Origin: Tribonema minus
Taxonomy: Eukaryota > Sar > Xanthophyceae > Tribonematales > Tribonemataceae
Direction of reading: 5' to 3'
Length of the DNA stretch: 64,000 nt
NCBI GenBank assembly: GCA_017506865.1
Contig: JAFCMP010000035.1
Span: 1,473,783-1,537,782 of the forward strand
Position 1 is the stretch's first letter. Each line of letters begins with the position of its first letter. The notes under the pieces are model-generated. The model was not told the origin of the DNA and searched no databases. It saw only the letters and a list, made by a program, of their open reading frames with translations. Positions 40,545 to 63,882 of the stretch are shown here, piece after piece. The translations under genes were made by a program, and so were the position numbers.

Positions 40545-41448
40545 ATGTGCTATACCAGCCATAGCTATTGCATCAACTTGCATCTTATGCGCTGTGTCGT
40601 GGATGATGCACTAACACAGACCTCTGCAACCCTTTGCAATTCGCTCATGCAGACCATTGACGACCCCACCAACAAGAAGACAGCCGGGCGGACCAAGGGG
40701 AGGACCGGACTCCTCAACGACCCCCTTCCCACAACCATCCCCCTTCCGCCGGCCTCACGCGCATGTACCTGGTGGTCCTCTTTGTGTGCCGCTCCATGCG
40801 CATGCTGTGGCAGCGGAGCGCTCCATGCGCATGCTGTGGCAGCGGAGCACCAAGTCCCCCGACGCACCTGTGCCCGACCGCATCATCGGACTGGCGGGCA
40901 GCTGCAGCAACAAGGTGCTTGGGTCAAAGACATTCACTGAGGTCATCAGGAAGCTCGGCATGTGCCACTTCGCCATCCCCAAGTGGGGACCTGACTCCAT
41001 CCGCAACGACTTCGTCACAGCAACCTTCAGGGAGGCATACAGCGCTCATCACACAGGGGGCGGGCACGGGGCGGCGCAGGAGCTGCTGGTCGGCAGGATG
41101 AACGACATCCACTCCAGTCTCGATGCTGCCATCTCCAATCAGTGCGTGCGAAACGCGCACACCAGCTTCCTGCGCCCTCCCAAGAGCAGCAATGTCAACA
41201 ACGGTGGCAGGTATGGCAGCACGACCAACAGCGACGACACCACCGCCGCCGATGTCGGCGACGATACGGACAAGTTCAGGAGGGGAGCTGGCGGTGTTGA
41301 CCCCACAATCGCAGCCCTGTTAGTAAGCCTTAGCGCCTTGCTGCTGCTTGCGTTTGCCGACCATGAAGGTCCATGTGCCACACGTGCCACTGGGCTGAAG
41401 TGGGAGTTAGGGCCGCCATCCCCTTTCTCACGGCACTACAGGAGTTAG
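40545..41448 (+). pseudogene. Island ORF I: orphan protein with C-terminal membrane segment, frameshifted
   Basis: Function unknown. The protein-like reading moves through three frames. It opens at 40545 (TQTSATLCNSLMQTIDDPTN), shifts near 40745 at a C-rich run, and shifts again at a 29-bp tandem duplication (40791-40819 = 40820-40848). It then continues with KTFTEVIRKLGMCHFAIPKW to 41448. Removing one 29-bp unit puts the last two frames in register. A hydrophobic stretch (TIAALLVSLSALLLLAF) near the end could be a membrane anchor. No family was recognised. It is the first plus-strand member of the orphan ORF island. Confidence 0.5.
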
Positions 41449-42816
41449 CTGGGTCGAGGTAGGAGCTTGGTGAGGTGTCGCCAAACACAACAACACTATA
41501 GCTACACACACACACAGGAGACTGGCGCACCCCAGTTCCCACATTGGCAACCGAAGCAGATGAAAACGCCATGCCCTGCTGGACAAGGTAGCGTTGGTGA
41601 AAGATGCTGGGCGAAATCGGGCAGGCGGCGAACCGTACCAGTTGCTTGAATCAAAGGAGATCAAGGATACGATTCTGAATCACCGATTCTGGCGGGAGTG
41701 CAGGTACCCCGAAAATTACTTGCAAGGCAGGCAGGAAGCTGTAGCTGACTTGATGGAGAGGGACAAGCTTAACAGCTTCTGGAATGTCCACATGCGCACA
41801 GTTGAGAAGGGCGTACGAAACCCATATCATGCAGGCGATTTGATAGTAGTGCTGCAGGCTGTGCCACAGAAGCGGGCTTCAGACAAGTATGCCATGTCCA
41901 TGGGCATGGTGGGACGGGATGCAGAGGGTGTCATGCACATTGAAGGAGTAGACGCGCTGAACCCAGTCAACACACCGCGCAAACCCCTAGTTCTGCAGGA
42001 AGAGTCGGGGATGGACAGGTTGAGAGTGTGGAGGCCTGCCGGCTATGAGTGGGCAATATACCACCATGACGCTAATCTACTAAGTCAGACTGCGATGACA
42101 GAGATTGTGCAAGTGGCACCAGCGTGGGCGCAACCTAAAGGCCGATTCCCCGGGCACCACAAGATGGGGCCCGGGGACTACGTCACCGTTAGTGCTGAGG
42201 AGCAATTGCTTCTGGTGCCGACTCATACGCTCACACCATTGGTGCTCCCCAAGGGCGCACAGGTCAGGTTTGCGCTCGCAGCAGGTGATACGCAGACCCA
42301 CTGTGGCACCGTCGTGGAGGACTTTGTTGCTGCCTCAGATAAGCTCTTTGTCAACTACTTGGATGCAATCAACCCGTATGTGTGGGTGCGAGACAACGAC
42401 GGGGGTCGCACTTGGCAGGTGCCAGTGTCAGAACTCGACTTCAGGAGGGATCCGTGGTGGTCATGTCCGGTGCTGCCCGTAGCGCCATTCAAGGGCGAAG
42501 GGTGGAACTTGGGGCCTGGGCCCATACTGGCCTGGCTCGTAGAGAATGAGTAGGACACTCCTGTGGCCCTGTCCATCAAACCCGCTGGGTTGCGTTGGGG
42601 GATTCCAAACTACGCCCGCAAGATTGGTAGGACCATGACGATTGAGCATGTGCCGGTAAGTGTGGAATTTCTGTTCGGTGGGTGGCAGCAGGACAAGCGC
42701 AGCCGCGCGCCGGTGCTGAGGGTGCAAGATAGCGCGATAGCACCACATTCTGGATGGGAAGTGAGGCAGGTGTGCGCCCAGGTGGTCAATGCAACGCATT
42801 TCGACCTGTACAACAA

Positions 42817-43098
42817 TGACGGAACTATAACACCGTGGCAGAGTAGGACACCCAAGGTGGACCCAATGCAAAGTGCAGAACAGCACTAGACCAGGGCAGG
42901 CTGGTATTGCAAAGAAGTGATTATTGTGCAGGAGCGTGAGCAAGCGGAGAAATAGCCCTGAGTCAATGGCGGAACAGTACCGGACTGGTGCTGGAACATG
43001 CAGTGGTGGACTAACAAGAGAAACTCCCAGAATGGGGAGAAACCTGTGTAGGTATGCATGCACATACAAGTAGGGTATGTAGGTATCATACTCCGTCA
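42817..43098 (-). repeat. LTR (282 bp) of the truncated copia element
   Basis: Ends TGACGG...CCGTCA, a 5-6 bp inverted repeat. It is homologous to the LTRs at 49711-49989 and 51338-58302. The adjoining purine tract shows it is the 3' LTR of a minus-strand element. Confidence 0.85.
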
Positions 43099-43234
43099 CC
43101 CTCCCTCAGTACGAAAGCCGTGTGCTGAAGTACTGAAATGCAAACATGCAGGTATGAGCCGGGTGTGCTCCTTGATGTGCAACGGTGTGCATGCTAACTG
43201 GTGTAGCAACCAGTGTGTACTCTGAAAACCTGGA

Positions 43235-62250: not shown

Positions 62251-62256
62251 AACACA

Positions 62257-63131
62257 ATGCTTGCTAATACCCTAAGTCACCGTGTAAGAGACATACTGCA
62301 GGCAGTAACACCACGTGTAGATGCTACACTGAAAGGGGAGGTGTACGATAAACCGTCAGCCGAAGAGATGCAGGCTAAAAAAGCGAGGTTAGAGGCTGCC
62401 ATTCAGGGTGAAATAATGAGGTCCGAGGCTGAAGCGGCCCAGGCTGCAACACCACGTGACGCAAGTATGCAAGCACATGATTTAGCGCCACCCCCCCTGC
62501 AAGTGGAAGTAGATGTCACAACTGATCAGGAATACTACGATGATGAATTAGGGCCACCCTCCCCGCAAGCGGAAGTAGATGTCACAACTGATCAGGAATA
62601 CTACAAAGCCGACTCAGCGCCGCCTCCCCCGCAAGTGGAAGTTGACCGCGTGTTCCCCCCGCAAACGCCTCTCTGACACTAATATTCTGACCTCAAACGA
62701 CCCTGCTGAGTGCGATACGTTTCTCAGTGATGACTACATGCTTCCAGATCCTCCTGCAGACTTCATATATCAAAGCAGGCAATAGTATCAACTTGAACTT
62801 TGCAAAGAAGCGTGCGTTCGATCTGTGGGCACTCATGCAGACGAGCAAGCGAGATTCTGTCAGGCATTTTTGCATGAACGAATTCAATATTCCAGCAGAC
62901 AAATCCTTCCTGATCGTGCTCACAGCCAGCCTGAACAACAGTTACTTCATGAGGAAGGGCGGTGGCGGCAAGAGCGCAGCAGAAGTAAAGCTCATAAGCT
63001 TGCCTGCCACGTTTGCAGATGCGGCAGCGGAACTTGTGATTGTTCAAAAGGCCTTCAACCAGTGTACCACAAACTTCACGGCTTCAGGTAAGCAGCGCCT
63101 GACCTACAGTCAGGCTACGGTAACATGCTGA
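62257..63131 (+). pseudogene. Island ORF XI/XII: orphan protein, probably one frameshifted gene
   Basis: The ATG at 62257 opens 139 codons: an N-terminal helical part (MLANTLSHRVRDILQAVTPR), an Ala/Glu-rich helix, then 66-bp repeats encoding EVDVTTDQEYY. The frame ends at 62676 after a run of six C. Protein-like sequence continues in the next frame (NDPAECDTFLSDDYMLPDPP, to ~62770), then in the frame ending at 63131 (LNFAKKRAFDLWALMQTSKR; SFLIVLTASLNNSYF). Two small shifts would give ~290 residues. The final frame alone could start at ATG 62730. Function unknown. Confidence 0.5.
62491..62650 (+). repeat. 66-bp in-frame coding repeat
   Basis: Two full units and a partial third, each encoding a Pro-rich stretch followed by EVDVTTDQEYY. 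Being a multiple of three, the repeat keeps the frame. Confidence 0.85.
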
Positions 63132-63150
63132 GGAAGGGTACGGAAAGGAG

Positions 63151-63882
63151 ATGAAGCAGAGTCAAACACGCAACCGAAGCCGAGAGGCGTCAGGTACACC
63201 TTTATTCCAATTGTTGCACTCCAGCTGTTGGGTATACTATATATTAGTAAGTGCGCTCGGAGCCATCGGGTCTTGGGGTCTCCCCGTTCTTCATGCTGCG
63301 CTGTACACGGCTGCGTCTGCGGCATCCAACATTGACAACGACTCAGGTGCCCCTGTCATCTGCTCTGCACTGAGCACAGCCGGGTCTGCGGTAGCAGACG
63401 TAGCCAGCATCACTGCTATGACGATCAGCCAGTCGGGAGTAGGTGATGTCGTCAAGAATGCAGTAGCAAGTACTGCGGTAGCTGTGGCGGGCGGCTTGAA
63501 GCTCCCAACACTGCCATATCTTTTGAATAAAATCCTGTTAAAAACGGTAACCCTATCAAAGAAAATGAACCAAGACTTATTATAGCATAAGTAAATGGTA
63601 ATAGTCGACGTAAACCTCCTATTTTACGCATGTCTTGTTCATCAGATAATCCATGAATAACAGAACCAGCGCCTAAAAATAGCAAAGCTTTAAAAAATGC
63701 ATGATTTGCTAAATGAAAAACACCAACACTGTATTGACTTAAACCACAAGCAAAAATTATATAACCTAACTGACTACAAGTTAGGCTCCGAACACAACGT
63801 TAAGGACTTTTTTAAGGAAATAGGGGCATTCTGGGAGCAAATCAGGAAATCAGAAAATGCCTTTCAAGTGCCGTTCTTGTAA
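63151..63882 (+). pseudogene. Island ORF XIII: Ala-rich orphan protein split by mitochondrial DNA
   Basis: The left part (63151 to ~63513) has a hydrophobic N-terminal region (VYYILVSALGAIGSWGLPVL) and an Ala/Ser/Val-rich part (VVKNAVASTAVAVAGGLKLP). The right part (~63781-63882) reads HNVKDFFKEIGAFWEQIRKS and ends in TAA. Both parts are in the same reading frame, the intervening insert being a multiple of three in length by the best boundaries. Function unknown. Confidence 0.5.
63516..63781 (-). pseudogene. nad5: Nuclear insert of mitochondrial nad5 fragment (NUMT)
   Basis: Minus-strand translation gives an unmistakable NADH dehydrogenase subunit 5 core: CSQLGYIIFACGLSQYSVG, then HLANHAFFKALLFLGAGS, DEQDMRK, and LIGLPFLTGFYSKD. 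DNA is far more AT-rich than its surroundings, with mitochondrial-style codons (TTA, TTT, AAA). TCA is read as serine at conserved positions. It is a fragment of ~88 codons with no start or stop, so non-functional. Edges are where nad5 similarity ends. Confidence 0.92.

Follow-up and report, generated by a model that had tools for sequence, protein, structure and literature searches.

A decayed fragment of probable giant-virus origin in a transposon-rich island of the Tribonema minus genome

Introduction

According to two papers, xanthophyte genomes carry hallmark genes of giant viruses, which have been named xanthoviruses and placed beside the phaeoviruses as a proposed sister clade (PMC12993054, PMC13236599). 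Trees in this work were rooted with Tribonema minus sequences (PMC12993054, PMC13236599), and phaeovirus-like tyrosine recombinases were reported from Tribonema (PMC13236599). Here, we analyzed 64,000 nucleotides of the Tribonema minus genome (contig JAFCMP010000035.1, positions 1,473,783 to 1,537,782), called the window below, and in particular an island at window positions 40545-63882. An initial annotation, made from the letters alone, had described this island as compact orphan open reading frames (ORFs) on both strands. We found that part of it holds remnants of five genes that probably derive from an endogenous giant virus. These algae were already known to harbor giant-virus remnants; the interest lies in the five-gene block to which the remnants described here correspond, a block nearly absent from databases.

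The locus resembles the xanthoviruses in its host and in that capsid and VLTF3 genes lie on contigs with relatives of the block; it differs in that the window has no hallmark gene and that the accessible text of the two papers makes no mention of the block (PMC12993054, PMC13236599). Phaeoviruses (EsV-1 and relatives) are likewise latent, integrating algal giant viruses with small viral pieces reported in host genomes (PMC12993054). However, database searches with the block proteins returned no phaeovirus protein, and no direct comparison with EsV-1 was made. In Euglena gracilis, giant endogenous viral elements are also eroded by transposable elements and duplications, but those belong to the Asfuvirales (PMC12455990), whereas the window holds a small fragment of another kind. 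Among the literature on Tribonema and viral terms, for which coverage was partial, no publication title concerned this locus or block. Polintons and Polinton-like viruses form compact two-strand gene blocks that are repeated in protist genomes. The block shares the compact layout on both strands and the repetition within the genome, but no integrase, protein-primed polymerase, FtsK-type ATPase or double-jelly-roll capsid was recognised in the frames scanned near it.

Results

Five gene remnants in the window

The island was dissected by searching the Tribonema minus genome (158,181,000 bases in 554 contigs, numbered with C below) with its pieces, followed by comparison among the fetched copies (loci numbered with L). 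The non-repeat remainder, about 5 kb at 49057-49434 and 58349-63089, consists of five gene remnants:

49057-49434, minus strand: P971 remnant, the N-terminal ~100 aa with a hydrophobic segment (tblastn match at 49305-49015)
58349-59140, plus strand: P253 remnant (55% over residues 4-253 of an L047 frame, E 1.7e-87)
59567-60855, minus strand: remnant of a transmembrane (TM)/Pro-rich protein with a hydrophobic segment, matching a 423-aa L046 frame
60780-61450, plus strand: remnant of a Trx-like protein (weakly thioredoxin/glutaredoxin-like) in two frames, matching an L046 frame
61466-63089, plus strand: Big remnant, the first ~620 of ~2,100 aa, in several frames (34-65% to an L046 frame, in four pieces)

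The same block was found elsewhere in the genome, where the initial annotation had proposed to look for it. All five remnants follow the order and strands of a block on C293 (L047), and all but the P971 remnant are also represented on C401 (L046); the P253 match itself was found at L047 only, not at L046. The P971 remnant matches residues 10-101 of a 971-aa L047 frame at 68% (E 1.8e-31), with 70% DNA identity over 49055-49434. The P253 remnant has one internal stop, and the frames on either side of it (58268-58834 and 58835-59140) share the same phase. The TM/Pro-rich remnant matches the L046 frame at 45% over residues 178-349 and at 57% over residues 5-34. The two Trx-like frames match theirs at 56% and 45% (E 1.2e-51); the thioredoxin/glutaredoxin label comes from sub-threshold Pfam matches only. 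Within the Big remnant there is a 151-bp tandem duplication at 61608-61909.

ORF content was compared with 60 dinucleotide shuffles, counting frames that start with ATG and span 100 aa or more. The island contains 47 (shuffle mean 24.4, maximum 37), 58303-63585 contains 11 (mean 2.5, maximum 6) and 1-20000 contains 12 (mean 7.5, maximum 14). The idea of an ORF-rich island was therefore correct as to the excess, but the island is a mosaic and much of it is repeats and transposons. The abundance of repeats, which make up much of 40463-58302, is what could suggest that the whole island is no more than chance ORFs in GC-rich repeats. We give this explanation practically no credence, as it is already contradicted for 58349-63089 by the five syntenic protein matches (E down to 1.7e-87), by the ORF excess in 58303-63585 and by dN/dS of 0.15-0.25 in the three computable window comparisons described below.

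Two structural details of the initial annotation fared less well. Membrane segments had been assigned to at least three ORFs; a hydrophobic segment was present in two of three tested (48799-49395 and 59567-60457), and 63151-63582 had none. The stated 34-nt overlap, 23-nt gap and 3-nt tail-to-tail spacing between ORFs had no counterpart in ATG frames of 100 aa or more, although other frames may have been meant.

Better-preserved copies of the block

The copies of the block fall into groups: C90, C182, C293 and C179 (95-99% alike over 3.4 kb), C401 and C514 (81%), and the window with C274. Elsewhere in the genome, the five genes are open frames without introns: P971 (971 aa), P253 (253 aa), TM (423 aa), Trx-like (247 aa) and Big (~2,100 aa, with 838 aa in L046 continuing in phase, from stop to stop, into 1,262 aa of the neighboring L048). 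In these better copies, P971 has an N-terminal hydrophobic segment and Big has hydrophobic segments. Damage is also seen outside the window, with P971 broken at 256 aa on C90 and TM split in L047. Four genomic Trx-like matches were each counted with one internal stop, yet open frames of 228-231 aa are present at these places.

Selection was assessed in 20 comparisons among the copies and a neighboring 553-aa gene, with the window excluded. Seventeen gave dN/dS of 0.07-0.42, one gave 0.48, one was zero and one was not computable; several dS values exceed 1.3, which makes these ratios rough. For the window against L047, dN/dS was 0.20 for P971, 0.15 for P253 and 0.25 for TM, and was not computable for Trx-like. 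The block frames are under purifying selection between copies. With long open frames and low dN/dS, the members of the block are real genes that have decayed in the window.

Beside the block are tandem arrays with units ~360-390 bp apart (L050:3990-5300), which recur at C522, C434, C178, C93, C532, C90, C179 and other places.

Relation to giant-virus hallmark genes

The capsid profile PF04451 had 10 matches in the genome and the VLTF3 profile PF04947 had eight; neither matched in 14 control genomes. On C90, the block occupies 684-699 kb, followed by VLTF3 (1,016 kb), the capsid (1,095 kb) and a second P971 (1,294 kb), and C179 shows the same order (70-85 kb, 388 kb, 470 kb and 648 kb, respectively). 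Both Capsid_N and Capsid_NCLDV are present in the C90 capsid frame, which also matches capsid proteins of solved structure, among them that of PBCV-1. Half of the 12 P971 matches are on C90, C179 and C112 (two each), flanking the hallmark genes on both sides on C90 and C179. For Trx-like, six of 14 matches are on VLTF3 contigs (C90, C179, C112, C9 and twice C223), and the two relatives on C223 and the one on C9 are 48, 32 and 52 kb from VLTF3. The 553-aa protein had 45 matches, some of them on the hallmark contigs C112, C9, C223 (0.5 kb from VLTF3) and C144.

The synteny of the five remnants with the block, together with the relatives of two of its genes on capsid/VLTF3 contigs, supports a decayed viral element, which was one of the two origins proposed in the initial annotation. 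We conclude that 49057-49434 and 58349-63089 probably represent a single decayed piece of an endogenous giant virus (Nucleocytoviricota), of the kind proposed as xanthoviruses. This does not extend to most of the other island DNA, which is repeats and transposons.

Several observations weigh against this conclusion. The window contains no hallmark gene, and neither PF04451 nor PF04947 matched on C35 (the contig of the window), C274, C401, C514, C182, C293 or C33. As the initial annotation had stated, no capsid or polymerase was found among the window frames scanned with Pfam. A distance of 300-410 kb separates the block from VLTF3 and capsid on C90 and C179, and 2 kb sampled from C90 at 850 kb, between block and hallmarks, is simple sequence and not viral genes. 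The Trx-like matches on C223 and C9 are weak and only partial, covering 64-70 residues at 36-41% identity (E 2.5e-7 to 8.2e-6), and many relatives of the 553-aa protein are on contigs without a hallmark match, such as C490, C166, C515 and C532. The tandem arrays that adjoin the block occur widely, including on contigs without hallmark matches, and frames for kelch, lipase and methyltransferase proteins near the C90 block could be host genes. Also, scans of IMG/VR found no relative of P971, the 553-aa protein, Trx-like (as a single sequence or as profile A3) or the C-terminal part of Big; since the C90 capsid frame was unmatched there too, this negative scan says little.

Alternatively, the five genes could form a large mobile element in its own right, either a Polinton-like virus or a transposon of no recognized class, which is often found in or near endogenous giant viruses. 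This would fit the copies without hallmark matches on C401, C514, C182 and C293, the flanks that differ among copies, the remoteness of the capsid on C90 and C179 and the widespread tandem arrays flanking the block. However, diverged relatives share contigs with VLTF3 on C223, C9 and C112, and no terminal repeats were seen, though the block ends were not mapped. No integrase, transposase, capsid, ATPase or polymerase Pfam match was found in the frames scanned from L046-L050, L052, L054 and L055, a subset of frames in which diverged members may escape Pfam. We consider an independent element unlikely. The unclassified large transposon that the initial annotation had offered as its alternative is less likely than a viral origin and keeps some weight because no hallmark gene has been shown within the same element as the block.

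D5_N (primase-helicase) was not used as a viral marker; it matched 16 times in the genome, but three bacterial control genomes matched too. The genomic matches are on C2, C235, C334, C226, C353, C379, C171, C150, C212, C534 and others, mostly without capsid or VLTF3. Most of these frames are 460-990 aa long and may belong to other virus-like elements.

Database relatives and possible meaning of the block

Relatives of the block proteins were sought among 5.8 billion proteins with a search sensitive only to relatives sharing short exact words. Two JGI metagenome proteins were returned for Trx-like. For the P971 N-terminus, the matches were three Tribonema minus proteins, and for the 553-aa protein likewise three from Tribonema minus, plus one EukProt transcript. 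NCBI annotates the block relatives as Tribonema minus hypothetical proteins. This annotation, the transcript and the purifying selection would also suit an ordinary multicopy host gene family. Such a family is very improbable in our view, given that the order of five genes on both strands is repeated at separate places, that frames of up to ~2,100 aa have no introns, that relatives elsewhere are nearly absent and that the block co-occurs with hallmark genes.

Attempts to identify the proteins gave little. P971 matched 16 phage tape-measure families (best 8.6e-13) and, below the cut-off of 38 bits, Baculo_PEP_C (2.4e-7, 31.4 bits). Both were tentatively read as coiled-coil similarity because the matches are mainly mid-protein and name many unrelated families. 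An HNH-like label for the 553-aa protein, suggested by a Cys/His motif, had no support in Pfam, NCBIfam, PHROGs or PDB. Predicted structures of the Trx-like and 253-aa proteins were of low confidence (mean pLDDT 36.0 and 34.3), and a PDB profile search gave two matches only for A3 (Trx-like; E 0.16 and 0.39) and none for A4. Upstream of the 553-aa gene, a stretch of 131 nt that partly recurs in the genome folded no better than shuffles.

We tentatively suggest that the block (P971, P253, TM/Pro-rich, Trx-like, Big and the adjoining unknown frames on C90 and C401-type copies) could be a conserved module particular to xanthophyte giant viruses, without a close relative in other known viruses. 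It may build a membrane-bound or tegument-like structure and may have been kept, duplicated and scattered even where hallmarks were lost; a virion or membrane role of its proteins is a guess. Where every hallmark gene has been lost, the block could serve to mark viral remnants, and its proteins are candidates for new virus-specific functions. Better-preserved paralogues in the same genome allow orphan ORF islands of Tribonema minus to be read as giant-virus fossils.

Decay and flanks of the fragment

The window is the terminal part of C35 and reaches its last base (1537782). For the right side of the remnant, the sequence therefore has to come from another contig, C274 (26,282 bases), which repeats the window from 45235 through its end and continues for ~7.5 kb (L045). 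The base-by-base comparison of the two covered 45235-51500 (99.9% identity) and 57500-64000 (99.4%). Over 5.3 kb there were 19 mismatches and 15 insertion/deletion columns, and some of the frame damage may accordingly reflect allelic differences or sequence error. Both copies share the stretches in which P971 is truncated and element Y (described below) is inserted.

At the left edge, the P971 remnant abuts a truncated element X. Big stops after ~620 aa, and TM, Trx-like and Big all shift frame. At the right edge, the remnant runs into repeats and the following fragment:

63600-63780, minus strand: mitochondrial-type NADH dehydrogenase gene fragment, whose continuation on C274 matches PF00361 (4.6e-19)

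Past the window, a later piece of Big recurs on C274 in two or more units that lie between NADH dehydrogenase fragments; a hAT remnant is close by. PF00361 fragments, presumably mitochondrial, are at L045:5-349 and 6560-6820, among the repeated units with the Big piece.

No complete member of the five-gene block is encoded in the window, and the remnant is a fossil. A viral genome would have entered the algal DNA, and its fragment is now cut on the left at the truncated X and on the right at the mitochondrial-type fragment and repeats. The nesting shows that Y was inserted into the fragment and a LINE into Y. In the window, the frames are broken by stops and frameshifts, although some differences from C274 may be allelic or sequence error.

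Repeats and mobile elements of the island

The initial annotation had counted only two transposon insertions; genome copies map more mobile elements, as follows:

40463-41324, no strand assigned: repeat W (copies 84-89% at C335 and C536), with ORFs 40545-40940, 40763-41101 and the first part of 40825-41448
41324-42770, plus strand: element X, left part, with ORF 41753-42553 (copies at C550, C323, C508, C482, C279, C517 and C264)
42771-48330, no strand assigned: transposon Z, 5.6 kb, inserted in X (inverted ends 98% alike, CAGG on both sides)
42818-45294, minus strand: Copia fragment inside Z (long terminal repeat, LTR, from 42818; reverse transcriptase, RT, 43235-43984; integrase part 43981-45009)
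45295-48283, no strand assigned: body of Z (286-bp direct repeats 45295-45580 and 47997-48283; 450-aa ORF 46220-47572, minus strand)
48331-49059, plus strand: element X, right part, truncated, joined directly to the left part in other copies
49709-51538, no strand assigned: element Y, an LTR element of ~1.9 kb, first part (copies L003-L008, ~280-bp LTRs)
51539-58203, plus strand: LINE in the 3' LTR of Y (RT 54445-56493; 11-bp target duplication AGTCCATGGTG)
58204-58302, no strand assigned: element Y, end of the 3' LTR, from comparison with Y copies
63782-64000, no strand assigned: dispersed repeat (93-95% at C535, C1 and C146; weaker copies elsewhere)

Because W, X, Z, Y and the LINE lie inside the island, several of the orphan ORFs of the initial annotation belong to repeats: 41753-42553 and most of 48230-49168 to X, and 46220-47572 to Z. 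Where complete, copies of X are 93-95% alike over 41550-42770 and 73-78% over 41324-41559. X is within a 1010-aa open frame in L023 (L023:1177-4206), which matched no Pfam family. None of eight X loci gave a match to P971, so the P971 piece is not part of X. The X family is recent, with copies mostly 96-99% alike over long stretches.

Transposon Z has both 47-bp terminal inverted repeats and a CAGG target duplication, as in a terminal-inverted-repeat DNA transposon, and its empty site (uninterrupted X) is visible in four copies (L022, L023, L024 and L032). Its 450-aa ORF had no Pfam match above the cut-off and thus no recognisable transposase. The body of Z gave at least 165 genome matches, with several tandem arrays. 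The 286-bp direct repeats are just within the inverted ends, and the head-to-tail arrays have a period near 2.7 kb. Z is also found at C461, C445, C5, C539, C290, C65 and other contigs. The Copia pol fragment matches RVT_2 (2.4e-53) and SH3_retrovirus (5.5e-26) in Pfam, and copies of its LTR are 94-100% alike at many places in the genome. The X and Z frames gave dN/dS of 0.56-1.05 in five comparisons, which are little informative because divergence is very low.

Element Y was defined from six fetched copies. To its left, 49479-49677 matches a repeat at C535. The RVT_1 match of the LINE (2.2e-6, 28.0 bits) is slightly below the Pfam cut-off of 29.6. The LINE frame 52130-52639 had no Pfam match; its GNGNCL motif resembles an OTU protease. 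A second, inverted copy of the 3' part of the LINE is at 33988-35361 in the window and is 97% identical to 56843-58210.

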